Shown piece by piece: positions 7,579 through 48,682 of a stretch of 49,745 nt of DNA. A program made the position numbers and the translations under genes. Source of the DNA: a virus. The notes beneath the pieces are model-generated. The model saw nothing but the letters and a program-made list of their open reading frames with translations. It ran no database searches and was not told where the DNA came from. The number at the start of each line of letters is the position of its first letter. Positions within the stretch are counted from its first letter, which is position 1. Location: positions 1 through 49,745 of the IMG/VR virus record IMGVR_UViG_3300000101_000026; one strand, given 5' to 3'.

Positions 7579-7867
7579 CAGTCGAAAGCTCCTCCATTTT
7601 CTCCGCACACAATTTAAGTTGCTCCATAACCTCCAACAGTTCATCGTAGTCCAAAGCCACACCACCGATAGAGTTCTCCTCGTCGCCTTCATCATAACCT
7701 TGCTCCACTAATGTTAGTAACTCATCGCCCCTACCTACCAGTATCACCTTAGTCCAACCAACACGAGTGTCTACGGCTTGGGTAACACGTTTGGGAGTAA
7801 CTCCGGCCTCCAAGTCTCTCTCGGTCTGCCGAAAGTCATCCATTGAAATAACTTTATCATCACTCAT
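7568..7867 (-). CDS. Small acidic protein, unknown function
   Basis: 99 residues, acidic, with a helical C-terminus (DELLEVMEQLKLCAEKMEEL). No domain recognised. It overlaps the DNA polymerase stop by four bases (ATGA), so it is coupled to polymerase translation, and it feeds into the 37-residue membrane protein. An accessory role at the fork is conceivable but is only inference from position. Confidence 0.6.
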   Translation of the reverse strand: MSDDKVISMDDFRQTERDLEAGVTPKRVTQAVDTRVGWTKVILVGRGDELLTLVEQGYDEGDEENSIGGVALDYDELLEVMEQLKLCAEKMEELSTDVK

Positions 7868-9111
7868 CCTGCTTCTCCGTATGATTTACCAATACCCGAT
7901 TCACAAGTGATGGGTAGCCCATCAGCCCATGCGGGGGTCGTATTCATACACGCTTCAATGTACTCACGTGCCTCATCTACTTCGCTTTCCTTTACACAGC
8001 ATACCACGGAATCGTGTACTGTCAGTGCGATCTTGTACTTTCTAGCGATGTCTAACATCTGCTCACCCATAATACATCTGGCAATAGCTTGGCATATGTT
8101 CTCCACCACCTTACCACCGTATATACGTGTGCGCCCACGCCTAGTCATGTAGCTAAACTCTGGCCCACGTTCACCTTGCTCGTAGTCTAGGTCGGCGTAC
8201 TTCATCCACAACCCTGACGGCAACTTGATACCCGCTGTTTTCCTGTGTGACTTACACTGTACTATGTTGTTAGCCCCATACGTAAAGTCGTCTCCACGCG
8301 ACATGCTAACCAACATGTGCTGTGACGAACGCCAGAGCTGTGCGATCTTCCAGTTAGCATCGCGGTAGATTTGTACTACCCTTTTAGCTTCGGCGGGTTC
8401 CATAGTAGTGCCAAAGGTCTTCAACTGTTCAGCGAATCGCACCGCACCCATGCCGTACCCTGCACCTAGGATGGTAGTCTTGCCTACGAACCTCTGCTCG
8501 GCAGTCACCTCCCCCTCGGGTATGTTATAGATACGTGCCGCCATCTTTATATACACGTCTTCCTGATTGGCAAACGCTTGTACTAGGTCGTCCTGCCCTG
8601 CCAACCATGCGAGTACACGTGCTTCGATCTGAGACGAGTCACAGTCAATCAACACGTACCCCTCCGGTGCGACGATACTCTTCTTCAATACCTTACCATT
8701 CACACCACGACTCGGTAGGTTTTGAATGTTAATCTTATCATCGCCTCCCCACCTACCAGTGTGCGCGGCGTAGTACCTAACAGGTACCGGCAGTAATCCC
8801 CGCTTGGCTATACCTATAAACCTCTCCGTACGTGTCTCTTCGAGGGAGCTTTTCGTGCCTAATCTTGATGTCACTAGTGCTTGCACGCGTGGGTTCTCGT
8901 GGTCTTGTAGTGCCTTGAACGCCTCGTCAGACTTGGCAAACGCGTACGTCTGCTTACCTGTAGTAAGGCTAGTCTTCATCGGAGGCTCAACACCCTCAGC
9001 TTCTAGTAACTTGGCGAACTTAGGGTTACTCATAAGGTCTGTCTTGGTAACGCCAGATGATTCTATAAGGTCTAACTTTCTCTGCTTCACGTTACCCAGA
9101 TGCGTTTCCAA
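7864..9111 (-). CDS. DNA polymerase I (family A), polymerase domain, frame-separated from its exonuclease
   Basis: Family A polymerase palm and fingers: motif A LIDCDSSQIEARVLAWLAG, motif B QRFVGKTTILGAGYG, motif C LTVHDSVVC. The residue equivalent to E. coli Pol I Phe762 is Leu (KTTIL), and motif C reads HDS rather than HDE. In this frame homology continues upstream of the nominal TTG start (FELDLPLLETHLGN, from about 9132) and would join the exonuclease frame after IDP. No Shine-Dalgarno is seen for the TTG. Hence it is a +1 frameshift product, a natural split, or an indel in the sequence. Confidence 0.88.
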   Translation of the reverse strand: METHLGNVKQRKLDLIESSGVTKTDLMSNPKFAKLLEAEGVEPPMKTSLTTGKQTYAFAKSDEAFKALQDHENPRVQALVTSRLGTKSSLEETRTERFIGIAKRGLLPVPVRYYAAHTGRWGGDDKINIQNLPSRGVNGKVLKKSIVAPEGYVLIDCDSSQIEARVLAWLAGQDDLVQAFANQEDVYIKMAARIYNIPEGEVTAEQRFVGKTTILGAGYGMGAVRFAEQLKTFGTTMEPAEAKRVVQIYRDANWKIAQLWRSSQHMLVSMSRGDDFTYGANNIVQCKSHRKTAGIKLPSGLWMKYADLDYEQGERGPEFSYMTRRGRTRIYGGKVVENICQAIARCIMGEQMLDIARKYKIALTVHDSVVCCVKESEVDEAREYIEACMNTTPAWADGLPITCESGIGKSYGEAG

Positions 9112-9127
9112 TAGTGGTAGGTCTAGC

Positions 9128-9694
9128 TCAAACGGGGTCGATAAACATACGTAACGTCATGTCTATGATGCGCATCTCCTTTTTAGGAAACCCCTTACCC
9201 ATCTTGGAAAATAACATATATGTTAGTTCCACATCGTTGATGCAGTAATCGCCGTAGCTGTCTAACTGTTCGTCAGAGAAGTCTAATCTTCTAAGTCCCA
9301 TTGCGTCGAGGACTTCAGTTCCTTTCTTGCCGATACCGTATCGTTCAGCCAACACCGCAAGACTGCCACCCACTTCAACACCGTGTAAAGCACGAGCGAT
9401 ACACAAAGTATCAGCCCAGATACGAGGACGGATATTGAAAAGCCAACTGAGTATAGCACCGTCAAACATAGTATTGTGAGCCAGTACCATGCTGTTCTTC
9501 CAATCGAAAGTATGTAAGTAATCATGTAACTCCTCGTGTGTACCCGATGCCCACTCTGTATCCCCATTGTTTACCTTGATACCTACACCCACTATCTCAA
9601 AGCGAGGGTCGCGGATGTAGTTCTCAAGAGTTATCTTACGTAGCGAGAAGTCTTTGTCATAGTACGTCTCGAAGTCCAACGTAATTAAGTCCAT
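9128..9694 (-). CDS. DNA polymerase I proofreading (3'-5' exonuclease) domain
   Basis: 188 residues, DnaQ-like: Exo I LDFET (Asp7, Glu9), Exo II LAHNTMFDGA, Exo III YGDYCINDVELT. GGAGGA lies four bases before the ATG at 9694, so the GTG at 9706 is not the start. The frame stops with IDPV-UGA exactly where the polymerase domain would begin in a normal family A enzyme; the next domain continues in the +1 frame. It overlaps the upstream DUF3310 gene by one base. As annotated, the exonuclease would be a free subunit. Confidence 0.87.
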   Translation of the reverse strand: MDLITLDFETYYDKDFSLRKITLENYIRDPRFEIVGVGIKVNNGDTEWASGTHEELHDYLHTFDWKNSMVLAHNTMFDGAILSWLFNIRPRIWADTLCIARALHGVEVGGSLAVLAERYGIGKKGTEVLDAMGLRRLDFSDEQLDSYGDYCINDVELTYMLFSKMGKGFPKKEMRIIDMTLRMFIDPV

Positions 9695-10050
9695 TACTCC
9701 TCCCACTCTACCTCAGCAATAAGCTTGTTCAGGTACCACTGCGCTTTACGCAGATCCTCCACCCCATTCTTATCTTCATACCTCCAAACGTATTTCTGTA
9801 CGTTACCCTTCAGGTAGCCCGTGTATGATTCGGTAGACATAGATGCTTTGATAGCTTCTATACACTCAATACCTCCGGCGTTGTAGTGCGGAGGATTCTC
9901 TACCATGCACTGGTACTGAAGCAGATTGGCTAGATTCTCTTCATCTATCGTGCGCTCTTCTAGGTACTTCTCATACTTGTCCAATAATTCTGAACCGTGC
10001 TTCTTACGTAACGCGTCCCACTGTTCGGGGGTAGTGTCGTTTATGCCCAT
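9694..10050 (-). CDS. DUF3310 protein
   Basis: 118 residues. The C-terminal ~70 residues are a clear DUF3310 domain: PPHYNAGGIECIEAI, then GNVQKYVWRYEDKNGVEDLRKA and WYLNKL. This domain is frequent next to phage nucleotide-metabolism and replication genes; its activity is not established. The N-terminal 45 residues are helical and charged. The stop codon overlaps the exonuclease start. Confidence 0.85.
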   Translation of the reverse strand: MGINDTTPEQWDALRKKHGSELLDKYEKYLEERTIDEENLANLLQYQCMVENPPHYNAGGIECIEAIKASMSTESYTGYLKGNVQKYVWRYEDKNGVEDLRKAQWYLNKLIAEVEWEE

Positions 10051-13995: not shown

Positions 13996-14214
13996 TTAGC
14001 CTTGTTTGATTCGTGCCCATGCACGCTGTACTGCTTCGTAGTCCTGCCTGTCTATCTCAGACGTGGTAGGGTACTCCTTCATATAGTCACCATAGAAACC
14101 TACTAGGTCGTCAATGGTGTTGACCGCATCTTTCCAATCCATACGTAGTTCTTCGCTTGATTGAAAGTCAGCGGGGTCTTCTAGCATTGGGTGTCGCCCG
14201 TAGTTATTAGTCAT
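13996..14214 (-). CDS. Small acidic protein, unknown function
   Basis: 72 residues from the ATG at 14214, which shares its A with the stop of the VWA gene and has GGGAG about eight bases upstream; the longer frame from 14310 is a shadow inside that gene. Acidic helices (SEELRMDWKDAVNTIDDLVGF). No domain recognised; coupled to the MoxR/VWA module. Confidence 0.55.
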   Translation of the reverse strand: MTNNYGRHPMLEDPADFQSSEELRMDWKDAVNTIDDLVGFYGDYMKEYPTTSEIDRQDYEAVQRAWARIKQG

Positions 14215-15425
14215 TATCTTAACTCCCTTGAGTTGATGTGTAGGCATTTGCCGGTAGTGGGTACAGCGCGCTCGTTGTCGAGTATCACCCAGAGTACAGG
14301 GCACGACCACTCACCCCAACCGTTGTATAGGTGACCGTCAGTCAGAACAATAACAGCTTGGGGCTTGATGGAATGCTCGGTCATATACTCAGTGACACAG
14401 TTCACATCAGTGCCACCACCGCCAACAGGCTTGGTAGTCTTGAGCATGTCGTCGAGTTCGTGCATCTCATACGACTCATCACGCACCACACTACTACCCC
14501 AGTACAATTGGCGTAGCTTCTCAGGCTTGACTGTATCGCAGATAGCCTTGACCTCAGACATAAACGCGTTTAGCTCACACTGTCCGATAGAACCAGACGT
14601 GTCGATAGCGTCGATCAGCTCACCCACCTGCTCACTCACACCACTAGGCATGATAATACCCTGCGACATCAGGCGGCGATTGGGTCGGGCATACGTAGCG
14701 TAGTCATTGCCTGCACACGTGTTCTGGATAAACTCACGTAGTACCTCACGCCAGTCAACCTGTGGCTTGAGTAGGTCGTCGAACCCACGTGCTTCACCGC
14801 CAGACATCTTACCTGCCGCCATAGCACCCTGTCGAATCGCCTCGTCTACATCACGTTCGAGTTGATCTTGCTCGTCTTGGGACATTTCCTTAGCCCCTTC
14901 CCAGTCGTGGCTGTCCATCGGGATACCAGTCCCCTCGCCATCGTCACCATCATCATCTGGATCAGAGGGGTCTGATCGGTCTTTCTCCTCATACAGTAAG
15001 TTGAACACCTGCGCCTCGTCCATGCCTCGGTACTTCTCGTCGAGTAACCCACACTCAGGGAGCTTGGCAAAACCATCGCGTGCATTGTCATCGTATATCT
15101 TGATGTTGATAACGTAGTCACACGCGATGTTGGCAACCTCAGGGTCTTTCTCATACATCCATCGCCACGTGGTAAGGTGTCTGTATAGCTTGTGACCTTC
15201 CTCCTCGTGCAGTATCAACCCACGCAATTCGGCATCGGTCAGTGAGTCAACAAAGGCGCGACCAAACATTACATCACGCCCATTGGTACACGCTGTTGGT
15301 ATGTCGTCATGCACAGTCTTGTCACCGATCATCAACACACCTGCTAGTGCCATGTAGCGAGGGTGCTCCATAATAGCAACCACCGCTTTCTCAATGCGTT
15401 GCTCGGCTGTTAGTTGATTGAACAT
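14214..15425 (-). CDS. VWA-domain protein with N-terminal metallopeptidase-like region (DUF2201 type)
   Basis: 403 residues. The N-terminal domain has LHEEEGHKLYRH (His73, Glu74, His78, His83) where DUF2201 proteins carry a zinc HExxH; here an extra residue separates the two histidines (HEEEGH). An acidic linker (151-165) follows. The C-terminal von Willebrand A-like domain has a MIDAS site: DTSGS (275-279), GGGGTD (335-340) and LTDG (361-364). Directly downstream of the MoxR ATPase gene, it fits the MoxR-VWA pairs known to remodel or load metal into protein complexes. Target unknown. Confidence 0.8.
   Translation of the reverse strand: MFNQLTAEQRIEKAVVAIMEHPRYMALAGVLMIGDKTVHDDIPTACTNGRDVMFGRAFVDSLTDAELRGLILHEEEGHKLYRHLTTWRWMYEKDPEVANIACDYVINIKIYDDNARDGFAKLPECGLLDEKYRGMDEAQVFNLLYEEKDRSDPSDPDDDGDDGEGTGIPMDSHDWEGAKEMSQDEQDQLERDVDEAIRQGAMAAGKMSGGEARGFDDLLKPQVDWREVLREFIQNTCAGNDYATYARPNRRLMSQGIIMPSGVSEQVGELIDAIDTSGSIGQCELNAFMSEVKAICDTVKPEKLRQLYWGSSVVRDESYEMHELDDMLKTTKPVGGGGTDVNCVTEYMTEHSIKPQAVIVLTDGHLYNGWGEWSCPVLWVILDNERAVPTTGKCLHINSRELR
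14960..14977 (-). repeat. Dyad element variant inside the VWA gene (GATCAGA-4-TCTGATC)
   Basis: Same layout and GGGG spacer as the other copies, but both arms carry the matching substitution, T to C in one and A to G in the other, so the dyad stays perfect over 7 bp. It is read in the same frame as the copy at 18098, encoding RSDPSDP compared with RLDPSNR. Confidence 0.55.
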
Positions 15426-15434
15426 AGTAATCTC

Positions 15435-16508
15435 CTATACCTTGTCGGCGGCAAACATGTAGCCGTTCTCAGTACACCACTTAGTGAAACGTGCATTGGT
15501 AACAAGTACGTTCTTCTTGTCTTGGTCGTACTTGGCACTACGCACAGTATTGTTGACAAAGAACCCCTGCCAGCGTTTGTCGAGGCGCATCATGTATCGC
15601 AACCACGCATCAACCCAGTCCTTGTCGATCAGAGATACAGCGCGATACACCACCATACCTACAGCAGATGCAGACGTAGGTATCTTGGCGGTGTAAGGGT
15701 CTTGCTTGATAGATTCGAGTGATGGTAGTTGGTCAGCGAGCTTCACAAACGACATCAGGTCAGCGGCGGCGCGTTGTCCAATACACCCAGTCAGTGCGGC
15801 TTGCGTTGTTACATCGTCGAGAGAGTCGCGCATCTTCAACGTATCACTGGCTATGTGTAACGTACGTGGGGTGACAAAGGCGGCACGTTGTTGTTTGGGG
15901 TGGAAGATGTACGGATTGGACTCGGGGTCAGGCACTTCTTGGTATGACTGTAGTATCTCGGGAAATTGCTTGATGAATCCTAGTACGCCTAAGTCCCAAC
16001 CGGCATTGACACCATACTCTAGCATAGCCTCAGCGGTAGGCTTGGCGATCTCAACAGTGATGATACGGTTGCGTGCATGTGGTGGTAACAAGTCACCCAC
16101 ACCCTCACCTGCTAGGTTGGTAGTCGCGTACACAATACTACCTTCAGGGAATCGGTTGCGCTCTAGCATGTCACGCAGTAACGCGTTCTTGACAGCGGGG
16201 TTAGCCTTGCCGAACTCATCGACCATCAGTATCACAGGCTTGCCTAGGTGTAGCCCGAACTCCTCGTTGGGTAGGTACTTGACGTAGCCCTCGTCTGTAT
16301 TGAGTGAGGGAATACTAATGTCGCCCAGATCCTTGGTGGTACAGTCAAAGTATACAGGGTGGTGGTCAGGGAACATCGAAGCCAGTGTCTCAAGTGTAGA
16401 CGACTTACCACAGCCCATGTGACCTTGTAGTAATACAGTGCGTTGGGTGCCAACAGTAGCTACTAGGTTGACGGCTTGGTCTAGCGATAATGCATATAAG
16501 TTTTTCAT
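15435..16508 (-). CDS. MoxR-like AAA+ ATPase
   Basis: 357 residues. Walker A GHMGCGKS (29-36), Walker B ILMVDE (93-98), sensor-1 YATTN (127-131) and an arginine region (HARNR, 144-148) define a MoxR/RavA-type AAA+ chaperone ATPase. These work with VWA-domain partners, here encoded ten bases downstream, and with the DUF3150-like protein upstream. Cytoplasmic. A GAGGATAC ribosome-binding site and a dyad-element variant precede the ATG. Substrate unknown. Confidence 0.86.
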   Translation of the reverse strand: MKNLYALSLDQAVNLVATVGTQRTVLLQGHMGCGKSSTLETLASMFPDHHPVYFDCTTKDLGDISIPSLNTDEGYVKYLPNEEFGLHLGKPVILMVDEFGKANPAVKNALLRDMLERNRFPEGSIVYATTNLAGEGVGDLLPPHARNRIITVEIAKPTAEAMLEYGVNAGWDLGVLGFIKQFPEILQSYQEVPDPESNPYIFHPKQQRAAFVTPRTLHIASDTLKMRDSLDDVTTQAALTGCIGQRAAADLMSFVKLADQLPSLESIKQDPYTAKIPTSASAVGMVVYRAVSLIDKDWVDAWLRYMMRLDKRWQGFFVNNTVRSAKYDQDKKNVLVTNARFTKWCTENGYMFAADKV

Positions 16509-16527
16509 GTGTGTATCCTCAAATGTG

Positions 16528-16546
16528 GATTAGACGGGTCTAATCG
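16528..16546 (-). repeat. Dyad element copy with CGGG spacer
   Basis: GATTAGA-CGGG-TCTAATC: 7-bp arms kept, spacer changed and the outermost pair lost. It lies 20 bases upstream of the MoxR ATG, next to GAGGATAC. The remaining ~120 bp up to the DUF3150-like gene holds no recognisable gene. Confidence 0.72.
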
Positions 16547-16669
16547 GGTTTATGTAATAAATTGATGTGTATTCTACGCGGGCAATACGACCGCGCTCGG
16601 TTCTTCGGGTCTTACTATGGCATCGGGTACGCTTGAAGTTGCGCACCCTTACAACCACTTGGCTACCCA

Positions 16670-17581
16670 CTAGAAATCCAGTGTAGGTAGGTTGGCTAGA
16701 ATATCGTCAGCCGCTTTCTTAGTACTGGCACGTTGGGCATGGTTGTGCGACAGTGACTCATACGTTACACCACGCAGTGCATCTTCGAGTCTGGTACGCA
16801 TAGCCTCGATCTTACTGTCACCAGTGATATTACACTTGGACATGATCGGTAGCAAATCGAGAGCATTCGTTACTAGACTTGACTTAAACGACTTGAACCC
16901 TCGCTTGTTTACGTAGTCATCTCCCGTAGGTTCGGACAGTCTGTCGGATATGGCAGACACCACAGTGTGAACGCGTTTGTACACGTCATTAGCTATACCC
17001 TCAACTTGGTCGGCGTAGAACTTCTGGTAGTGTTGCTTGACAGCATCGAACTGATCAGCGGGTAGGTCAACACGTAGGTCACCTGCTTCCGGTACACCGA
17101 TATAGTTGATGCGTAGCGCGAACTTGTCTGCGACCTGCTCGGCGGTCGGGTAGTCAGACTCACACCACAGGTCGCCCATGCGTGCTTGCTCGCCTACACG
17201 TATCCACTCGTACTTGGTGGTAAACGCTTCAACCAGTTTGTCGAACTCTTGTTGCAGTCCGGTCATGTCCTTGTTGTACTCAAAGTAGTTAGCGGTAGAC
17301 AACAGACGTAGCCCGGAATCAGACCAAGGTACTGTGCTACTGTAATGCGTTTGGCGTACAGCGGCGGTAAACTTCTTGATGGCTGTCAGCTCCTCACAAT
17401 CACACAGCGACTTGTTCACAGTTGCCGCGCGCTTGGCGGCGTTCTTGTTGTAGGTCAGCTCTTTCGACGCGGCGTTGTCTTTCTTGCGCGCAGTCCACTG
17501 ACTGATCTTCAATTCAACTAGCATAGCGCATGATGCTAGGCTTGGTACTTCAACGTTTGGTGCTTGGTTTAGATTGTTCAT
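16670..17581 (-). CDS. DUF3150-like protein of the MoxR/VWA module
   Basis: 303 residues, mostly helical. N-terminal half has the DUF3150 look: a helical lead, a central LLSTANYFEYNKDMTGLQQEFDKLVEAF segment and the strand-turn INYIGVPEAGDLRVDLP; the C-terminal half is predicted helical. I recall DUF3150 genes next to MoxR and VWA genes in phages, as here; the role is unknown. ATG preceded by GAGGATAT and by a dyad element. Confidence 0.58.
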   Translation of the reverse strand: MNNLNQAPNVEVPSLASCAMLVELKISQWTARKKDNAASKELTYNKNAAKRAATVNKSLCDCEELTAIKKFTAAVRQTHYSSTVPWSDSGLRLLSTANYFEYNKDMTGLQQEFDKLVEAFTTKYEWIRVGEQARMGDLWCESDYPTAEQVADKFALRINYIGVPEAGDLRVDLPADQFDAVKQHYQKFYADQVEGIANDVYKRVHTVVSAISDRLSEPTGDDYVNKRGFKSFKSSLVTNALDLLPIMSKCNITGDSKIEAMRTRLEDALRGVTYESLSHNHAQRASTKKAADDILANLPTLDF

Positions 17582-21447: not shown

Positions 21448-21670
21448 GACATATATTCACGTAAATCAGCATAAAATCCGTGCCAACCTGAAAAATGGGA
21501 CTAATGAGCCGGTAATTACCGTAAAAACAGGTAGAGAGAACCAATATTGTCGGTCTGTCACAATAGACGGGCCGTGTCAAGTGCTACAAAGTACCGATGA
21601 CAAGCCGATTTTGTCGTGTGGAGCGCGTGTAGTGATGGTAACTGAGTCTGGATACACTATAAATGAGTGA
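21440..21670 (+). CDS. Small conserved phage protein preceding TerL
   Basis: 76 residues from the ATG at 21440, overlapping the previous gene by eight bases and the terminase by eight. Beta-rich sequence YIHVNQHKIRANLKNGTNEP then LSCGARVVMVTE; I recognise this as a recurrent small protein ahead of phage terminase genes, function unknown. Confidence 0.62.
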   Translation: MTKTYIHVNQHKIRANLKNGTNEPVITVKTGRENQYCRSVTIDGPCQVLQSTDDKPILSCGARVVMVTESGYTINE

Positions 21671-22664
21671 AACTTTCTCGGAAGGCGAGATCCAGCACAT
21701 GTTGGACAACCTAGACTCGTTTTCTGATGAAGAAGTTGTAGAAATACACAAATTAGTGGACGCAATTGCGGATAAAGCCGACATAAAGGCCGCATATGAC
21801 GATTTAATCGCCTTTTGTAAGCATATGATGTCCGATTTCATTGTTGGTAAGCATCATCGCATACTAGCAGACATGCTAATGGGTATTGAGCGCGGAGATA
21901 AGGATCGTGTGTGCGTAAACATACCTCCGAGACATGGTAAGTCTCAATTAGTGTCTATTTTCTTCCCCGCATGGTATCTAGGCCGTAATCCAGACAAAAA
22001 AGTGATGATGGTGTCGCATACGACCGATCTCGCGGTAGATTTTGGTCGAAAAGTGCGAAATCTGATCTCTGACCCCAAATTCCAAGCTATTTTCCCTACT
22101 GTACAGCTCGCAAAGGACTCTAAGTCTGCCGGACGTTGGAATACCAACCAAGGTGGAGAGTATTATGCGTGTGGTGTAGGTTCTGCACTCGCTGGTCGTG
22201 GTGCTCACCTGTTATTGGTGGATGATCCGCACTCTGAGCAAGATGTGATCAACGGAAACTTCATTGTGTTCGAGAAAGCATACGAATGGTACACATTTGG
22301 TGCTCGTACTCGACTTATGCCCGGTGGTAGTGTCGCTATTATCCAAACTAGGTGGCACATGGACGATTTGACGGGTCGTGTAGTCAAGGATATGAAGAAT
22401 AACGAGCGATCTGACCAATTTGAGGTCGTAGAGTTCCCCGCAATCCTAGAAATAGAGAATGACACGGGGGAAATCACTGAAAAACCCCTGTGGCCTGAGT
22501 TTTTTGACCTTGAGGCACTAGGACGTACCAAAGCGTCGATGCCTACGTATCAGTGGAACGCTCAGTACCAACAACAGCCCACCGCCGAAGAAGCTGCGGT
22601 AGTAAAACGCGAATGGTGGAGAATATGGGAGTCTGAAAGCGCTCCCGCCTGCGAATACATATAA
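21663..22664 (+). CDS. Terminase large subunit, ATPase part
   Basis: 333 residues. Walker A-type PPRHGKSQL (~88-96), Walker B LLLVDDPHSEQD (~177-188) and a coupling-motif region (IIQTRW) give the DNA-packaging motor. The frame stops at CEYI-UAA, exactly before the RNase H-like nuclease domain, which continues in the -1 frame from an ATG sharing the stop's last A. Homology runs through the join (CEYI+IMSLDSA), so this is a one-base frame change, either natural and translationally coupled or an indel. Confidence 0.88.
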   Translation: MSETFSEGEIQHMLDNLDSFSDEEVVEIHKLVDAIADKADIKAAYDDLIAFCKHMMSDFIVGKHHRILADMLMGIERGDKDRVCVNIPPRHGKSQLVSIFFPAWYLGRNPDKKVMMVSHTTDLAVDFGRKVRNLISDPKFQAIFPTVQLAKDSKSAGRWNTNQGGEYYACGVGSALAGRGAHLLLVDDPHSEQDVINGNFIVFEKAYEWYTFGARTRLMPGGSVAIIQTRWHMDDLTGRVVKDMKNNERSDQFEVVEFPAILEIENDTGEITEKPLWPEFFDLEALGRTKASMPTYQWNAQYQQQPTAEEAAVVKREWWRIWESESAPACEYI

Positions 22665-23206
22665 TGAGCCTTGACTCGGCGGCGGAGAAGCATAACCGTG
22701 CCGATTTCACTGCGCTAACCACTTGGGGGGTATTCCTCAACGAGGAAGAGGGCGCGTACAACATTATATTACTAAATAGTATTAAGAAACGCTTAGAATT
22801 TCCTGAATTGAAGGAAATGGCCCTAGAAGAGTACCAAGATTGGGAACCTGACGCGTTTATTGTAGAGAAAAAGAGCTCTGGTACCGCGCTATACCAAGAA
22901 ATGCGCCGTATGGGGCTACCTGTGTCTGAATTTACTCCACATAGAGGCTCAGGTGATAAACTTGCACGTTTAAACTCTGTGTCTGATATTGTACAATCTG
23001 GATTAGTATGGGTACCACAAACGCGTTGGGGAGAGGAAGTGATCGAGGAGATCGCTGGATTCCCGTTTATGTCCAACGATGATTTGGTGGATTCGACCGT
23101 TATGGCACTAATGCGGTTCAGGCAGGGCGGGTTTATAAGGCTACCTTCTGATGAAGAAGATGAGCAAAAATATTTTAAGTCGAACCGTAGGGGCGGCTAT
23201 TACTAA
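22664..23206 (+). CDS. Terminase large subunit, nuclease part
   Basis: 180 residues. RNase H-fold terminase nuclease: first catalytic Asp in MSLDSAAEKHNRADFTAL, second acidic site around DAFIVEKKSSG, last near NDDLVDSTVMALMRF. It cuts the concatemer into genome-length pieces. The start ATG overlaps the ATPase stop (TAATG), which could allow re-initiation and give a separate nuclease polypeptide. Confidence 0.87.
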   Translation: MSLDSAAEKHNRADFTALTTWGVFLNEEEGAYNIILLNSIKKRLEFPELKEMALEEYQDWEPDAFIVEKKSSGTALYQEMRRMGLPVSEFTPHRGSGDKLARLNSVSDIVQSGLVWVPQTRWGEEVIEEIAGFPFMSNDDLVDSTVMALMRFRQGGFIRLPSDEEDEQKYFKSNRRGGYY

Positions 23207-28362: not shown

Positions 28363-29268
28363 ATGGCTATTTCAAGAAGTCAATTACTCAAGGAATTGCT
28401 GCCCGGTCTGAACGCACTGTTTGGTTTGGAGTACGCAAAATATGGCGAAGAGCATAAAGAGATTTTCGAGACTGAAACCTCTGATCGTTCTTTTGAAGAA
28501 GAAACTAAACTGTCTGGTTTTGGCTCTGCCCCAACTAAGCAGGAAGGTGCAGCAATCGAGTATGATAACGCGCAAGAAGCATTCACTGCTCGTTACACTC
28601 ACGAAACCATCGCTATGGGTTTCGCTATCACTGAAGAAGCAGTAGAAGATAACCTGTATGACTCACTGTCTGCTCGTTATACTAAAGCTCTTGCTCGTGC
28701 GATGGCTTACACTAAGCAGGTTAAAGGCGCAGACATTCTGAACAACGCTTTTGCTGGTACTACCTACGGCGACGGTAAAGTGCTTTGTGCTACTGATCAC
28801 CCGCTGGTTGGCGGTGGTGAAAACTCTAATACTCCAGCCGTTGCTGCTGATCTTAACGAAACTTCTTTGGAAGCTGCTGTTATTCAGATCGCTGGCTGGA
28901 CTGACGAGCGTGGTCTTCTTATCGCTGCTAAGCCTAAGAAGCTGATCATTCCACCAAACCTGCAATTCGTTGCTACCCGTTTGTTGGAAACTGAAGGTCG
29001 TGTAGGCACTGCTGACAACGACATCAACGCCATTAAGAGCAACGGTGTTGTGCCACAGGGTTACACTGTTAATAACTACTTGACTGACACAGACAACTGG
29101 TTCTTAACTACTGACGTACCTAACGGTCTGAAGCACTTCGTTCGTAGCCCAATGGCTACTTCTATGGACGGTGATTTCGACACTGGCAACAGCCGTTACA
29201 AGGCTCGTGAGCGCTATTCATTCGGCGTTTCTGATCCACTGGGCATCTTCGGATCTCCGGGCGCTTAA
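28363..29268 (+). CDS. Major capsid protein
   Basis: 301 residues, of Mu-type/HK97-like capsid style: N-terminal arm (SQLLKELLPGLNALFGLEYA), E-loop-like region (DNAQEAFTARYTHETIAMGF), central helices (ARYTKALARAMAYTKQVKGAD), ATDHPLVGGG, and C-terminal A-domain sequence ending FGVSDPLGIFGSPGA. GGAG precedes the ATG. A strong terminator immediately follows, typical for the most abundant virion protein. Codons favour GCT/CGT/CTG, unlike many neighbours, fitting high expression. Confidence 0.86.
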   Translation: MAISRSQLLKELLPGLNALFGLEYAKYGEEHKEIFETETSDRSFEEETKLSGFGSAPTKQEGAAIEYDNAQEAFTARYTHETIAMGFAITEEAVEDNLYDSLSARYTKALARAMAYTKQVKGADILNNAFAGTTYGDGKVLCATDHPLVGGGENSNTPAVAADLNETSLEAAVIQIAGWTDERGLLIAAKPKKLIIPPNLQFVATRLLETEGRVGTADNDINAIKSNGVVPQGYTVNNYLTDTDNWFLTTDVPNGLKHFVRSPMATSMDGDFDTGNSRYKARERYSFGVSDPLGIFGSPGA

Positions 29269-30491: not shown

Positions 30492-30800
30492 ATGCGTAGG
30501 TACTATAAAAAAGGTGGGAAGGTCGGCACCGGCATGAAGGGGATGAGCCAGAAGAGCGGCGACAAACGTCCTACTAAATCCGGTGCGGGCATGACCGCTA
30601 AAGGTGTAGCTAAATACCGAAAGAATAACCCCGGCAGTAAATTAAAGACGGCTGTGACGGAAGATAAGCCTACAGGGAAACGCGCATCTAGACGTAAGTC
30701 TTACTGCGCACGTTCCGCAGGGCAGATGAAGAAGTTTCCAAAAGCAGCGAAAGACCCTAATTCACGATTAAGACAAGCGCGTAAGCGCTGGAGATGTTAA
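30492..30800 (+). CDS. Small basic protein with N-terminal MRRYYK tag
   Basis: 102 residues, strongly basic. Begins MRRYYKKGGK and ends KSYCARSAGQMKKFPKAAK...RLRQARKRWRC, a C-terminal domain I recognise from marine and cyanophage structural regions. First of the consecutive small basic proteins here. Possibly DNA-binding and packaged in the head; function unproven. Confidence 0.6.
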   Translation: MRRYYKKGGKVGTGMKGMSQKSGDKRPTKSGAGMTAKGVAKYRKNNPGSKLKTAVTEDKPTGKRASRRKSYCARSAGQMKKFPKAAKDPNSRLRQARKRWRC

Positions 30801-30801
30801 A

Positions 30802-31650
30802 ATGGCACTACCAGCAGTAGGAGCAATCATATCCGCGATAGGCCGAATGGGCGTATCAAAGGCGGTCAAAAAATACGGTAAGGCAGCAGTAGATAAGGCG
30901 AGAGCCGCCGAAAAAGGCGCAGCGTCTAAACTAGGCTCTAAGAAAGGTTTAGAAACTGTAAAAGGTACTTCTACTATGAATCGTGGTCGCGGCTACGGAC
31001 TAAAGCAGAAAGGTACCGGCAAGATGGCTACCAAAGAGCAGCGCGCAAAGAACGTTCGTAGTGGACGTCTACGTGGCTTAACCGCTGCAACAGTAGCCCC
31101 AATGGCAATACCTACGGCGGACAAGCCAGAGTATAAAAGCCCCTCTGCAAAGGAAGGAACAACTGCGGTCAAGCGCACTATCCCTGATATGGGTGGCGCA
31201 GGCGTACGTAAGAAGCAAGCAGGGCCAGACCCACAAGGCGCCCCTACGAAAGCTCAGAGCGATTATGCTAAGCAGCAGACAGCTAAATCAGCAAAGCGTG
31301 CCGCAGACGCACGCGCGAAAAAAGCTGGTTCTTCTAAGTCAGCAAGTACAGGTAGCGCTGCCAGTAGCTCTGCTAAAACAGCTAACAAAGGTGGCGATTG
31401 GAATCAATATAGTACTATCGCACAGGCTAAGAAAGCTGGTTCTTTGTACTACAGTCAGAACGGTAGGAAGATGGCGGCAGTATATAAAGAAGACCTGAAG
31501 CCGGGTGAGAGCTTACGAGACTACATGAACAAGAAGACTGGTAAGACTCGCAAGTTGATGGCTGGCGGTATGGCTAAGAAGTACAGCAAAGGCAAGACTG
31601 TACGAGGCAATGGTATCGCTGCACGCAGCAAATCTTGCAAGATGCGTTAA
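30802..31650 (+). CDS. Lys/Ala-rich protein with C-terminal CKMR tag
   Basis: 282 residues, histone H1-like composition in the centre (KQQTAKSAKRAADARAKKAG). Hydrophobic start (LPAVGAIISAIGRMGVSKAV), a DWNQYSTIAQAKKAGSLYY...VYKEDLKPGESLRDYM domain, and the end KLMAGGMAKKYSKGK...SKSCKMR shared with the next two genes. Likely a virion DNA-associated protein. Confidence 0.6.
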   Translation: MALPAVGAIISAIGRMGVSKAVKKYGKAAVDKARAAEKGAASKLGSKKGLETVKGTSTMNRGRGYGLKQKGTGKMATKEQRAKNVRSGRLRGLTAATVAPMAIPTADKPEYKSPSAKEGTTAVKRTIPDMGGAGVRKKQAGPDPQGAPTKAQSDYAKQQTAKSAKRAADARAKKAGSSKSASTGSAASSSAKTANKGGDWNQYSTIAQAKKAGSLYYSQNGRKMAAVYKEDLKPGESLRDYMNKKTGKTRKLMAGGMAKKYSKGKTVRGNGIAARSKSCKMR

Positions 31651-32063
31651 TGACTATATCACGGTCGCAAATGACCAAGCAGATGGAGAGTCCTATGGAC
31701 AAATTTAAACCAATGAAAGAAGCGGACTATGAGAAGCTAACGCCCGCTCAAAAGAAAGCGTACGACGCCAAGGCGAAGAAAGCCATGATGGGTAACCTCC
31801 CTAATGCGGCAGATAAGGCTCGACAAGACGCACTAAACAAAGAGTTCGGTACGTACAATAGAATGCCTGCTGGTGAAGACTCTAAGGCCAAGAAAGCTAA
31901 CGACAAGGCTAAGGCCAAGAAGATGATGAAAGGTGGTATGGCTGAGAAACCTAAGCGAGGCCAACGTGCGGCTAAGAACAAGATGATGGCTGGCGGTATG
32001 GCTAAGAGTAAGATTCGTGGTTACGGTATGGCACGTGGCGGCAAAGTATGTAAGATGAGATGA
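31650..32063 (+). CDS. Small Lys-rich protein with C-terminal CKMR tag
   Basis: 137 residues from the ATG sharing its A with the previous stop (TAATG). Charged helices (EADYEKLTPAQKKAYDAKAK), two MxGGMA motifs, and the end MMAGGMAKSKIRGYG...GKVCKMR. Composition and tag match its neighbours. Confidence 0.58.
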   Translation: MTISRSQMTKQMESPMDKFKPMKEADYEKLTPAQKKAYDAKAKKAMMGNLPNAADKARQDALNKEFGTYNRMPAGEDSKAKKANDKAKAKKMMKGGMAEKPKRGQRAAKNKMMAGGMAKSKIRGYGMARGGKVCKMR

Positions 32064-32073
32064 GGAAAGTATA

Positions 32074-32517
32074 ATGGCATTACCATTATTAGGCGTTGCA
32101 GCAAGATTTCTTGCATCGAAAGGGGCACGCGAAGCTGTAAAGAAGTATGGGACAAAAGCTGTTGACGAAGCTAAGAAGCAAATAGCAAAGCGTCAAGCAG
32201 CTATTGATAAGGGAGCTAAAAAAACTAACTACGAGAAGGGTTTTAATACTAAAAAACCTAGTAGAGCGGCCCGGGAGTTGCAGCAAGCGAAAAAAACTGA
32301 GTCCGGTAGGGCGGCTAGAACCACTTCTAAACGTAAGGAAAGCGTAGGTTTTGATGTAGGGAAGCAGGGCGCTGCGGCTAACAAGGCTTCAAAGCTACGA
32401 AAAGAAAAAGGCATTAAAAGTCCTGTAACGGGAAAGACTCGCAATTTGATGGCTGGTGGTAAGGTGCGCGGCATTGGTAAAGCTATGAAAGGCGTACGCG
32501 CCTGTAAGATGCGCTAA
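32074..32517 (+). CDS. Small Lys-rich protein with C-terminal CKMR tag
   Basis: 147 residues. The N-terminus (LPLLGVAARFLASKGAREAV then KKYGTKAVDEAKK) parallels the start of the 282-residue protein (VKKYGKAAVDKA), and the end NLMAGGKVRGIGKAM...RACKMR is the shared tag. So it looks like a shortened paralogue lacking the middle domain. Confidence 0.6.
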   Translation: MALPLLGVAARFLASKGAREAVKKYGTKAVDEAKKQIAKRQAAIDKGAKKTNYEKGFNTKKPSRAARELQQAKKTESGRAARTTSKRKESVGFDVGKQGAAANKASKLRKEKGIKSPVTGKTRNLMAGGKVRGIGKAMKGVRACKMR

Positions 32518-32693
32518 TGCGTAGTTACTATAAAACAAGCTCTTGCGGCTGCCCTAAGGACAAGAAGTTTGCTAAAGGCGGTACCGTAAAAGACTCATGC
32601 TATAAGAAGGTGAAGGCCAGCTACAAGGTCTTCCCTTCCGCGTATGCGTCTGGGGCTATTGCTAAATGCCGAAAGAAGAAGGCTGGCAAGTAA
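32517..32693 (+). CDS. 58-residue Cys/Lys-rich protein with MRSYYK tag
   Basis: Begins MRSYYKTSSCGCPKDKK, has four Cys in total (C10, C12, C28, C51) that could bind a metal, and ends AKCRKKKAGK. Both ends overlap neighbours by one base (TAATG), so it is translationally coupled. Confidence 0.6.
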   Translation: MRSYYKTSSCGCPKDKKFAKGGTVKDSCYKKVKASYKVFPSAYASGAIAKCRKKKAGK

Positions 32694-32992
32694 TGCGTAG
32701 ATACTATAAGTTGGGCGGTGGAGTACGTAAAACCGAGAAGGGTGCGTCTCTAAAGCGTTGGTTCAAGGAAGATTGGAAAGACGTAAAGACCGGTAAGGCT
32801 TGTGGTAGAAAGAAAGGCGATGGTAGGGGTACTCCTTACTGCCGTCCTTCTAAGCGTGTTACATCTAAGACTCCAAAGACCTCAGGTGAGATGTCTAGTG
32901 CGGAGAAGAAGAGTAAGATAGCCGAGAAGAAGCGGTTAGGGCAACCAGCAGGCAAGCCACGTAGAGTGTCAGCCGCCAAACGGAGGAAGTAG
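32693..32992 (+). CDS. DUF5872-like basic protein with MRRYYK tag
   Basis: 99 residues from the ATG at 32693. After MRRYYKLGGG it shows a DUF5872-type core: LKRWFKEDWKDVKTGKACGR, TPYCRPSKRVTSKTPKT, EKKRLGQPAG. Found in cyanobacterial, algal and phage genomes; function unknown. The longer frame from 32666 would overlap the previous gene. Confidence 0.68.
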   Translation: MRRYYKLGGGVRKTEKGASLKRWFKEDWKDVKTGKACGRKKGDGRGTPYCRPSKRVTSKTPKTSGEMSSAEKKSKIAEKKRLGQPAGKPRRVSAAKRRK

Positions 32993-32994
32993 AC

Positions 32995-33177
32995 ATGGGT
33001 ATGGGTGTTAAGCACTACAAAAAAGACGGCAAAGAGCATAAGGGCGGCCTACATAAAATGGCTGACGGAACTCTTCACTCAGGTAAAAATCATAGTAAAA
33101 CTAGTGTAAGATTGTTCCATTACGGCGATCTATCTAAGAAAGCTAAAGAAAAAGCTAAGTCAGGATGGGGAAGATAA
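32995..33177 (+). CDS. Small basic phage protein
   Basis: 60 residues: MGMGVKHYKKDGKEHKGGLH then SVRLFHYGDLSKKAKEKAKSG. His/Lys-rich with an amphipathic end; a pattern seen in many marine phage neck regions, unknown function. Last of the basic cluster. Confidence 0.58.
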   Translation: MGMGVKHYKKDGKEHKGGLHKMADGTLHSGKNHSKTSVRLFHYGDLSKKAKEKAKSGWGR

Positions 33178-33863
33178 TGGCTACATCAAATACTACAGCA
33201 TTCGATATGGACTTCACGGATATTGCCGAGGAGGCGTGGGAACGTGCAGGCCGTGAAATGCGTTCTGGATATGACTTACGTACTGCTCGTCGCTCTATGA
33301 ACTTAATGACTATCGAGTGGCAGAACCGTGGCATCAACATGTGGACTATCGAGGAAGGTAGCATTGACCTAGTGAAGGGGCAGACGCAGTACACACTCCC
33401 CGCCGATACCATTGACCTACTAGAGCATCAACTACGAACGGATGCAGGTAACGTATCTACTCAGTCTGACCTTAACCTGTCACGTATTAGTGTTAGTACT
33501 TATGCCACTATCCCAAACAAGTTGACACAAGGTAGACCAATACAAATATTTATTGAACGTCTAAGAGACGCTCCCAAGATCAACGTGTGGCCTGTACCAG
33601 ATAAGGCAGGATACAAGATAAACTACTACCGCCTACGTAGAGTACAAGACGCGGGCACAGGTGTAGAGACTGCGGACATGAACTTCCGTTTCCTCCCTTG
33701 CCTAGTAGCAGGGTTAGCGTATTATATCGCTATGAAGGTACCCGAACTCACAGATCGCGTAAGCATGTTAAAATCTATATACGAAGAGCAGTTTGATTTA
33801 GCGGCGCAGGAAGATAGGGAGAAGGCTCCAGTTAGGTTTGTACCCCGCATAGGACATATGTAA
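33177..33863 (+). CDS. Probable head-tail connector / neck protein
   Basis: 228 residues from the ATG at 33177 (overlaps the preceding stop, GGGGAAG upstream). Helical N-terminus (DIAEEAWERAGREMRSGYDL), INMWTIEEG, QYTLPADTIDLLEHQL, then IERLRDAPKINVWPVP and a helical C-terminus. Resembles adaptor/tail-tube-A-type neck proteins that dock beneath the portal. Role inferred from similarity and position. Confidence 0.6.
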   Translation: MATSNTTAFDMDFTDIAEEAWERAGREMRSGYDLRTARRSMNLMTIEWQNRGINMWTIEEGSIDLVKGQTQYTLPADTIDLLEHQLRTDAGNVSTQSDLNLSRISVSTYATIPNKLTQGRPIQIFIERLRDAPKINVWPVPDKAGYKINYYRLRRVQDAGTGVETADMNFRFLPCLVAGLAYYIAMKVPELTDRVSMLKSIYEEQFDLAAQEDREKAPVRFVPRIGHM

Positions 33864-45538: not shown

Positions 45539-48500
45539 ATGGGTAGAGGCATGGGCGCAATGCAGGCGAACCACATAATGAGTGGTGGTGGTGGTAGAGG
45601 TACTACTCGTGGTTCCCAGAACTTCAGTATCTACCAAAACCCTGACTCCCTACGTCCCCGCTCGACGCACGAGGAGCGCACAAAGACTTCGCAGGGTTAT
45701 GGTAAGCCGCCAGTCTATAACACGCGAGCTGACCATCCGGCCTACTCATATACACCGTCAGATGCGGAAAGGCAGGCTTTCTACGATGCTAATCCCGGCA
45801 CAGACCCCTCGAAAAATACGGGTAATTGGCTTAGGGATGCAGTCAGAGATAATTCCGTTAGAGATACACTAGGTAGTGCGCCCGGCGTAATAGGGACAGG
45901 ACTAGAAAACACTTACGACTACGTTACAGGTATACCCGCAGCGGAAGTAACCTATAGTATTCTTGGGGGCACTCTTTTCAAAGATACCGCTAATATGTTC
46001 GGGAAACTACTGGACGCCCCAAAAGCGATATATGAATGGTGGCACAGCAATGAAAACTACTTACGCCCAGAGAACCTATCTAAAATCTCAGATATTTACG
46101 GGCGCGACCTCACCATAGATCAACAACGGCAAGCCCTCGAATCGTTTACATCTCAAATGCCGGGTGGGGATGATTTACTGAAAAGTATAGACGCTATTCA
46201 GTCAGGGCAGTACGGTGCACCTACGAGCGGGGGTACCCCTACTGGGGGTGATGGTTCAGGCGTGGGGGGCACACTAAGTAACCCTAATTTTGATGCGAGT
46301 GGGCGGGCAACCCGTGTACAAGTGCCCGGGGGCGGCACCGTTGGCGTAACACGTAAGGTTCTAAAGCCCGGCGATTCCGGGTATGTAGACTACGGCGACC
46401 CCCGTAACATGAGCCAGTCACGACAGTATCAGTACTTTCAGCAACTCAAGGGAATGGGCGAAGACATTAACATGTCGGACGAGGAGTGGGAGAACGCTTC
46501 TGACGCTGAACGCCAAGCCAACCTTGAAGATCGACAAGCGTTCCGAGAGCTGCATGGAGAAGACCTTAACACCCTCCAAGGCTACATGCGTTCGTATAAC
46601 CCAACTACTTACGGCACAGACGCAGATGGCGACCCTATATATGCAGAGGGGTCTATTTCTGGGTACAACTTAGATAGTCTTTCCCCCTTTGATGATGATT
46701 TTGGTAGTCCAGAGCGTTTAGCCGATGTTGAAACTAAGTTCCTAAATGGAGAGATTAGTGAGACCCAGCTTAACCGTTATCTAGACGATGTAGAACGTAG
46801 TACCGGCGATACTTTCAACGTGCCGTTGGGGGAGTCTCTAGAAATGCTAGAGAGCGCAGGGTTTACAGATAGGGAGCTACAAGAGTTCTCGGTAGACTAC
46901 ACTACGATTGATCCTAACACGGGGGAATACCGATCAGACGAAGAATACTTTGATTACTTTGAGTCGGTGGTTAATCAGCTAGAATTTGAAGACCCAGAAC
47001 TCGAAGTCGAAGCGTACGATATGTACGACACTAGGCGCACCGAAGATTACGCAAACGCGTTTGACTACCTAGATGCCGTGGCAGGTACTGATACCTTCGG
47101 CGAAGTGTTTTCTACTATGGATGCGGAAAAAGCGAACGCCTACTTAGACTACCTAAAAGATCAGGGGCGGCTCGAAGACTCTGTTTATAGAGAGATGGTA
47201 GCTGCAAACCTATCGACAGATGACCAAAAGTTTTTCTACCTGCAAGATGAAACTACTATTGCCACAAACGCGTCCGGCAGCATATATGATGATTACCGCA
47301 TCGTACAGTTTGATGAGTTAGACACAGAGTACGATAGCCCTAGTAGCATCGAAGGGTTCACTGACGAGCAGAACGAGCGCCGCGCCACGATTGCTATGTT
47401 AGATGCAGGTAATGTGTCTTTCTCTGACGTGCAGAAGGGGGTGGAAAAACCCAAAAAGAAGAAGTGGTACGAAGACCCACTAGAAGTACTTAAAAGTGCG
47501 GGGGAGTCTTGGTTCTTCGGGGGTACTAAAGAACTCGGCCCTGCTATTGAGAACGTCCTCAAGGGAGAAGCCAATAGTCAGGATTGGCTGCAAGTCACCC
47601 CTTTTGCCTTGGAAATGGCAGAGGTTATCACCCCCGGCGTAAGTCGAGATGATGCGCAGGAACTGGGGGAGATTGCAAGAGCTGATGCCCTAGCGAATGG
47701 CGCAACGGCGGCGACTGCGGTGCAGGCGGGAAAAGATGCGTATGACACAGCACGCCTCGGTAAGGGGTTTGTCTTTGGTGACTTATACACCATGGGGTAT
47801 AACGAGAGTAAGGCCGCTATAAACGCCACGCTTACTGGTAACCTAGACGAGTTTGCTAAGCAGCGAGTAACAGCCGTTGCCTTTGAGAAAGGTATGAACG
47901 CCATAGGGGATACTGACCTAGTAAAAAGCATGTCTCCTAAAGTTAGAGAGGCTACGCATAAAACCCTAGTTGACTTAGCAAACGGTAAGAGCCTAGAAGA
48001 CTCCCTCAAAGACCAAGCTAAAGATTACGGAGAAGAAGTATTAGAAGATTGGGCCGAAGAACGTTGGGACGAATGGAAACCTAAGCTAGAACAGATGGGG
48101 CGAGACTTCGACGACAACTACTTGCAGCCGCTAAAAGACATGCTACCCGATGGGGGGCAAGCTAGAAAATTCCTTAGCGACTTTGATGATGAAGTGGTGC
48201 AGAAGTTCACTAAGCCTATAGGCGACCTAGGTTCTGATATAGACGATAACATCATACAGCCTGTACGGGACTTCGTAGAAGATAATGTTATTGACCCTAT
48301 AGACGATGTTATTGATGAGTTTGGTGACGAGCTACCAGACGGGCCTGACTTACCAGACGATGATGACTTCGACTTCCCTGATATGCCAGACTTCGGAAGG
48401 TTCCTAAGTGTCCTAGGGCCACTAGCCGGTATGCCGGGGTATGCTCCTCCAGAAGAAGAGAAAGGTGAAGACGATTTAATGCAGTTTGCAGAGCCCTATG

Positions 48501-48682
48501 ACTTCTCTGGAGATAGCATATTCAGGGATAGAGCACAAGAAAAACGTTTTGGCATTACGCGAGATAGTGATACACTACTAACAGATATTAATGCCAATGT
48601 TAATGACACTAACCTAGACGAATTTGCAGGGCTTGAAGGGCTCGATGGAGTTCCCCAACTTAGCAGGTTTCGTGGGTTTTAG
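45539..48682 (+). CDS. Large acidic virion-type protein, unknown (1047 residues)
   Basis: Gly-rich start (GRGMGAMQANHIMSGGGGRG), disordered Pro/Gly/Thr linker near 235-270, a long acidic helical centre with many Asp/Glu, KKKKWYEDPLEVLKSAGESW at ~645, helical repeats after 690, an Asp/Pro-rich stretch near 935-970 (DELPDGPDLPDDDDFDFPDM) and a conserved-looking end (LDGVPQLSRFRGF). No domain recognised. Size and place suggest an internal virion or ejection protein, by analogy only. Confidence 0.55.
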   Translation: MGRGMGAMQANHIMSGGGGRGTTRGSQNFSIYQNPDSLRPRSTHEERTKTSQGYGKPPVYNTRADHPAYSYTPSDAERQAFYDANPGTDPSKNTGNWLRDAVRDNSVRDTLGSAPGVIGTGLENTYDYVTGIPAAEVTYSILGGTLFKDTANMFGKLLDAPKAIYEWWHSNENYLRPENLSKISDIYGRDLTIDQQRQALESFTSQMPGGDDLLKSIDAIQSGQYGAPTSGGTPTGGDGSGVGGTLSNPNFDASGRATRVQVPGGGTVGVTRKVLKPGDSGYVDYGDPRNMSQSRQYQYFQQLKGMGEDINMSDEEWENASDAERQANLEDRQAFRELHGEDLNTLQGYMRSYNPTTYGTDADGDPIYAEGSISGYNLDSLSPFDDDFGSPERLADVETKFLNGEISETQLNRYLDDVERSTGDTFNVPLGESLEMLESAGFTDRELQEFSVDYTTIDPNTGEYRSDEEYFDYFESVVNQLEFEDPELEVEAYDMYDTRRTEDYANAFDYLDAVAGTDTFGEVFSTMDAEKANAYLDYLKDQGRLEDSVYREMVAANLSTDDQKFFYLQDETTIATNASGSIYDDYRIVQFDELDTEYDSPSSIEGFTDEQNERRATIAMLDAGNVSFSDVQKGVEKPKKKKWYEDPLEVLKSAGESWFFGGTKELGPAIENVLKGEANSQDWLQVTPFALEMAEVITPGVSRDDAQELGEIARADALANGATAATAVQAGKDAYDTARLGKGFVFGDLYTMGYNESKAAINATLTGNLDEFAKQRVTAVAFEKGMNAIGDTDLVKSMSPKVREATHKTLVDLANGKSLEDSLKDQAKDYGEEVLEDWAEERWDEWKPKLEQMGRDFDDNYLQPLKDMLPDGGQARKFLSDFDDEVVQKFTKPIGDLGSDIDDNIIQPVRDFVEDNVIDPIDDVIDEFGDELPDGPDLPDDDDFDFPDMPDFGRFLSVLGPLAGMPGYAPPEEEKGEDDLMQFAEPYDFSGDSIFRDRAQEKRFGITRDSDTLLTDINANVNDTNLDEFAGLEGLDGVPQLSRFRGF

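Follow-up and report, generated by a model that had tools for sequence, protein, structure and literature searches.

The window, meaning the whole stretch of DNA analysed here, is a 49.7-kb virus record in which the head genes follow the order terminase, portal, GroES-like protein, a putative scaffold of 337 aa, major capsid protein (MCP), cement-like protein, two paralogues, a run of small genes and adaptor. The names of these neighbours were taken from phage DSL-LC04, whose adaptor homologue carries the annotation 'Pam1 adaptor protein'. No annotated family function was found for the 337-aa protein, which is called a scaffold because of its position ahead of the MCP gene and its acidic composition, and no sequence relative of the window MCP was found in PDB. 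The small genes lie in a slot bounded by the MCP and adaptor genes, and the features are as follows.

28363..29268, + strand: MCP (gpT-like; PF25209, PF10124, PHROG_371), left edge of the tag slot
30492..30800, + strand: DUF6321 protein, 102 aa, with N-tag MRRYYKKGGKV (PF19846, E 4e-13)
30492..30524, + strand: N-terminal tag MRRYYKKGGKV, matching the consensus and predicted to be disordered (pLDDT ~46)
30802..31650, + strand: Lys/Ala-rich protein, 282 aa, with C-tag RGNGIAARSKSCKMR
31650..32063, + strand: Lys-rich protein, 137 aa, with C-tag RGYGMARGGKVCKMR
32074..32517, + strand: protein of 147 aa with C-tag RGIGKAMKGVRACKMR
32517..32693, + strand: PSAYA-core protein, 58 aa, with N-tag MRSYYK (core model; PHROG_38880, 727, 3477)
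32693..32992, + strand: DUF5872 protein, 99 aa, with N-tag MRRYYKLGGGV, starting at the internal ATG 32693 (PF19197, E 2e-14)
32995..33177, + strand: HYG-type small basic protein, 60 aa, an untagged member of the cassette (HYG model)
33165..33863, + strand: adaptor/head-tail joining protein (DSL-LC04 homologue; tail-protein PHROG), right edge of the tag slot

Elsewhere in the window, the terminase large subunit occupies two ORFs (21663-23206; Terminase_6N and Terminase_6C), a split that is either real or a sequencing error, while the terminase of relatives, e.g. that of locus L265, is a single frame of ~500 aa. The minus strand carries DNA polymerase A and a 3'-5' exonuclease in separate genes (7864-9706), as well as three adjacent genes (14214-17581) resembling those of a DUF2201 metallopeptidase/VWA protein, an AAA ATPase (weak) and a DUF3150 protein (weak), which possibly form a MoxR-like module.

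All seven proteins of the run are small and basic (58-282 aa; pI 10.0-11.4), in agreement with the original prediction. The MR[RS]YYK start that it described was recovered on three of them, at 30492 (MRRYYK), 32517 (MRSYYK) and 32693 (MRRYYK, from an ATG inside a longer ORF opening at 32666). The shared LMAGG...CKMR ending held as to CKMR, which closes 30802-31650, 31650-32063 and 32074-32517, but the second of these reads MMAGG rather than LMAGG. Among all 200 ATG-started window ORFs of at least 35 aa, CKMR occurs three times, always as the final four residues (P of at least three ~6e-12), and RxYYK three times, always at the start (chance ~9e-11). The seventh protein bears neither the N-tag nor the C-tag, and its HYG model matches 42 ORFs, mostly immediately ahead of the adaptor gene.

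The interiors had been described as differing or low in complexity and as resembling histone H1. This description needs amendment for two of them, which have a Pfam identity: DUF6321 at 30492 (50.2 bits against a PF19846 cut-off of 28.5) and DUF5872 at 32693 (54.8 bits against a PF19197 cut-off of 27.5), with the matched stretches of both models lying in the core and the end-tags outside. The likeness to histone H1 is one of composition only, and Pfam detected no linker-histone domain in the three Lys-rich proteins. The protein at 32517 matches PHROG_38880, 727 and 3477 (3e-11 to 8e-9) and reaches only 15.2 bits, under the cut-off, against Pfam DUF5872; no convincing Pfam or PHROG family was found for the 282-aa protein (30802..31650). 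DUF6321 is common to Pelagibacter, cyanobacterial and other phages, and the literature searched contained no functional study of DUF6321 or DUF5872. AlphaFold models were weak (pTM 0.39 and 0.31), with no fold match for the model of the DUF6321 protein.

Pattern searches extended the tags to other phages, with at least 120 matches of the N-tag and at least 119 stretches matching the C-tag pattern (RGxGxAxxGxxxCKMx-stop) in IMG/VR. A frame-shift control, in which one base was removed from a gap of the C-tag pattern, gave no match in IMG/VR, and the intact pattern gave none in 257 Gb of bacterial and archaeal sequence (one genome per species, 84,980 species). Among ORFs of at least 90 aa, the C-tag is terminal in 251, whereas the motif lies 40 residues upstream in 6. 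The N-tag consensus, drawn from 177 sequences, is MRxYYK[SK]GGK[VI]. Markers of the phage group, one or more per locus, are present in 213 of 218 non-redundant tagged loci; the two tag patterns make no reference to the capsid gene, and some of the 218 loci came from the capsid search. The group consists mostly of aquatic, short-tailed-type phages, among them relatives of HTVC023P and HTVC027P, which infect Pelagibacter. Searches with the tags alone were empty because the tags lack the length or the complexity for them: tblastn of the 30-aa tags against the phage collection gave no match even at E 10, and phmmer gave none against PDB or PHROGs.

The tags behave as exchangeable modules on a set of cores comprising DUF6321, DUF5872 and related small modules. 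The N-tag MRxYYKxGGxV stands in for one or two residues at the beginning of a core and leaves the rest unchanged, as in the pairs MRAYYKKGGGVKSPAWQRKEGK versus MAKSPAWQRKEGK and MRTYYKSGGKIRKTAKGAALKR versus MAVRKTAKGAALKRW, and it was found on seven core clusters and one singleton (N-tagged DUF6321: 62 relatives). Both DUF6321 and DUF5872 occur N-tagged, C-tagged (EGGYVSTADGVAQRGKTRGKMC in locus L213 and ARGCGEVMEGRRKKTLYV in locus L026, respectively) or bare; the PSAYA core bears a C-tag in locus L017, and gp51 of HTVC023P, with a PSAYA-like core, has the C-terminal end RGGGAAVRGMGFKGVF. No single ORF carries both tags among 264 N-tagged and 350 C-tagged ORFs (614). The two tags share a common heart, YKxGGKV, which appears as YYK[SK]GGK[VI] in the N-tag and as KKYKKGGKV ahead of RGxG in the C-tag.

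The C-tags fall into dialects, of which VR reads RGxGxAxxGVRxCKMR and GKT reads R[GA]DGxAxxGKT[KR]xKMx. A tag of the GKT type is also borne by a protein of 309 aa in Synechococcus phage MinM2. With these classes defined after inspection of the sequences and their boundaries drawn by us, 42 of the 46 loci with at least two C-tags are pure and 4 are mixed, against 22.7 mixed loci expected and a minimum of 12 in 2000 shuffles. The N-tags divide as well, into MRxYYK in VR genomes and M..RGMGA[IM]xPxK in GKT genomes, the latter start being found on its main core 25 times in GKT and once in VR; RGxG starts were counted 35 times at the N-terminus and twice at the control position. A 1047-aa protein of the window (45539-48682) begins MGRGMGAMQ, comparable to the RGMGA start of small proteins of the GKT dialect. 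When the GKT label is mapped on the tree of MCPs, 6 changes are required, compared with 26 in shuffles. Dialect goes with the lineage, and as such it fits a co-evolving partner, although inheritance alone also yields clustering; since dialect tracks phylogeny, shared ancestry accounts for part of the concordance. Within a genome, identity of the four C-terminal residues is barely above chance (0.119 vs 0.063), while the coarser division into dialects stands out clearly; no gene family splitting perfectly by dialect was found. One family of 82 aa, hydrophobic at its start and coiled-coil-like in its tail (L030:8916-9176 and relatives), occurs in 19 of the 32 loci of the GKT dialect and in none of the 78 of the VR dialect; it was considered as a tag partner and dropped as lineage-linked.

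The tags are also confined to one genomic position. Of 223 tags counted in the 101 tagged loci that have an MCP as well as an adaptor gene, 221 lie inside the slot (N 103/104, VR 66/67, GKT 35/35, TLY (TLYT) 17/17). Loci selected by pattern are biased to tagged cases, and the statistic was therefore repeated on 37 loci, the window included, that were chosen by the capsid protein alone and also contain the adaptor. In these, the MCP-adaptor interval makes up 131 of 568 kb (23% of the sequence) and holds all 20 KMR-/GKT-type C-tags and all 13 N-tags, with at least one such tag in the slot of 20 of the 37 loci. The sole remaining out-of-slot C-tag matches in this set were three variants of a fourth related ending, RGTGAATKGxxARGPMA, all 53 instances of which lie outside the slot, at a constant position past the adaptor; its protein looks like one orthologous family rather than a swapped tag. 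That protein, e.g. L008:8606-8851, is located ahead of the p34219 gene, varies at its start and is conserved at its end; none was found in the window itself.

A link to virions comes from T4-like cyanophages, where the same cores are embedded in long proteins; T4-GC119 is a protein of this DUF6321/PSAYA kind. In S-CREM2, ORF137 contains DUF6321 (Pfam E 3.5e-10) and ORF160 the PSAYA core (E 5.6e-23). In CsCl-purified S-CREM2 virions, 4 unique peptides were reported for ORF137 and 7 for ORF160 (PMC10665884 Table 3), both of which are long proteins that lack these tags and whose virion peptides are given without positions relative to the cores; the ORFs were tied to the proteome table by matching coordinates. 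According to the same paper, non-structural virion-associated proteins may have co-purified (PMC10665884). Moreover, T4-CTS-like starts such as MKTFEQFTEGS, MKTFKAFISEE and MITFKQFLDEK open 5 of 29 long core proteins, compared with 8 of 373 other ORFs (p ~0.001), an enrichment of five cases, one being the search query. In T4, the ten N-terminal residues of the CTS are sufficient and residues 4 and 7 are important (PMC9026906). Similar starts are found on virion-borne cytidylyltransferases, namely MKKFSAFLNEA in S-SM1 (PMC3037559) and MKNFSSFLTEA in S-CREM2 (PMC10665884). By analogy, these features of T4-like phages may carry over to the window; the literature searched yielded no virion proteome for a phage with the tags.

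Several further observations touch on virion proteins. Differing T4-like cyanophage proteins (L085, L086, L306, L312 and L393) have in common an N-terminal segment like TGAAAPEGPTAGYDPV, which is also present on the S-CREM2 virion protein with the PSAYA core and is perhaps another shared virion module. Virion protein 139 of S-SZBM1 was examined as a core carrier and contains none of the cores. A C-tagged protein in another locus (L039:6242-6757) opens with an MPSKSKKQ domain that is present too in phiKZ-like Pseudomonas phages; this core was followed as a virion lead to the phiKZ-like phages, for which no virion evidence was found.

The original prediction read the tags as sorting signals, for example for incorporation into the prohead. 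Module swapping, the single slot by the MCP gene and the use of one dialect per genome support this reading, as does the presence of the cores elsewhere in virion proteins or in proteins with T4-type targeting starts. Against it stands the finding that the tag is not obligatory: loss of tags from relatives that keep the cores, which had been named as counting against the idea, was observed in part, because numerous relatives retain the core without a recognised tag, and DUF6321 in VR-dialect loci is tagged in 39 cases and untagged in 37. Some proteins may be loaded with no recognisable tag, or the patterns may miss variants. On balance, the best reading is that the tags are terminal loading signals for a head-cargo cassette, towards which we lean with slightly more belief than doubt.

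Other explanations differ in how they deal with the same evidence. Because the three N-tags of the window are nearly identical as DNA, the tags might be leftovers of duplication or recombination, or a DNA-level element such as a promoter or translation start, with no function as protein. Across 181 strict N-tags, however, synonymous codons are random (Tyr4: TAT 91, TAC 90; Lys6: AAA 96, AAG 85) and mixed as in the genome at large, which points to selection on the peptide. Within genomes, N-tag codon identity is near the codon-usage expectation, being somewhat higher at 3 of 6 positions. Neither a promoter nor a start-site element nor very recent copying agrees well with these N-tag data, and the C-tags sit at the opposite end of the gene, where a start-site or promoter role would make no sense; this explanation is largely refuted and most improbable. 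The chief rival holds that the tags are nucleic-acid-binding ends for phage DNA or RNA, their presence in the head being a by-product of binding to the packaged genome. The composition of the tags (K/R 25-35%, G ~20%, D/E 0.5-5%), with RG-rich and aromatic-Lys-Gly stretches, suits such a role, as do the very basic cores and the predicted disorder of the N-tag. Plain DNA binding, however, leaves unexplained the fixed position at an end, the mutual exclusion of N- and C-tags, the invariant M-R-x-Y-Y-K and the per-genome dialects, and we regard it as unlikely.

Alternatively, the tags might bind a host factor or be recognised in the infected cell, for example by a chaperone, protease, ribosome or nucleoid, with the slot serving as a tolerant insertion site. 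The variable gene content of the slot and the patchy, often untagged cores are in line with this proposal. Against it, accessory genes could lie anywhere, yet the tags keep to one slot by the head genes, and two of the cores are present in virion proteins of other phages; we consider it decidedly unlikely. What the analysis establishes about the tags is that they exist, are conserved at the peptide level, move among cores and between ends, exclude one another, agree in dialect within a genome and stay within the slot. Late expression, loading by the tag, the partner and the role after loading are inferred.

If the tags are indeed loading signals for head cargo, small, basic and mostly disordered or helical proteins would be made late from the cement-adaptor slot, and each cassette protein would enter the prohead by way of a short basic terminal peptide, an N-terminal MRxYYKxGGxV or a C-terminal KxYKxGGKV-RGxGxAxxGxxxCKMR. 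The two kinds of end would offer versions of a single linear motif (YKxGGKV, frequently with RGxG) to a single phage-made partner, for which an acidic component of the head (scaffold, portal or MCP) or the DNA under packaging is the most plausible candidate. The scaffold, MCP and portal of the window have pI values of 4.7-5.0 and the tags are nearly free of D/E, so that their charges fit, with no single partner picked out. Once loaded, the proteins would serve as internal head proteins, binding or compacting DNA, and might also pass into the host. In its fullest form, this would be a two-ended address system in which one motif, at either terminus and in lineage dialects, loads any small protein of the slot, a proposal that we put forward tentatively and believe somewhat less than we doubt. 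If true, virion cargo could be identified from sequence by reading the tag alone. Such a rule would list testable injected proteins for hundreds of uncultured phages, supply a small, transferable tag for loading engineered particles of a harmless phage and open a way into DUF6321 and DUF5872.

Among known systems, the T4 CTS, with the sequence MKTYQEFIAE, is the closest point of reference, and the N-tag MRxYYKxGGxV departs from it past residue 4. The CTS of IPI, IPII and IPIII (PMC9026906) is, as here, a tag of ~10 aa on otherwise unrelated small basic proteins. Like the N-tag of the window, it has an M-[KR]-x-Tyr start and belongs to genes of head-associated proteins; the trait of a short N-terminal peptide on different proteins is shared by the N-tag and not by the C-tag. 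Unlike the T4 CTS, the tags are basic and have no acidic cleavage site (D/E ~1% in the N-tag), and the C-terminal form and the lineage dialects are further differences. T4 has a gp21-type protease, whereas no prohead protease family was recognised by Pfam among the head genes searched, where a divergent one could escape. By sequence and position, the tags fall outside T4-type CTS membership, and their function may be likened to T4 capsid targeting by analogy. A limited search of open papers found no description of the C-terminal form, the exchange of ends or the dialects. P22, P1, SPN3US and phiKZ-like phages carry internal or ejection proteins inside the head and deliver them together with the DNA, and in this these proteins resemble the head cargo proposed here; their signals are not known to form a swappable N/C-terminal pair. 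In encapsulins, a short terminal peptide recruits varied cargo into an HK97-type shell, a likeness to the tags that holds by general description, the encapsulin being a cellular compartment and not a virus.
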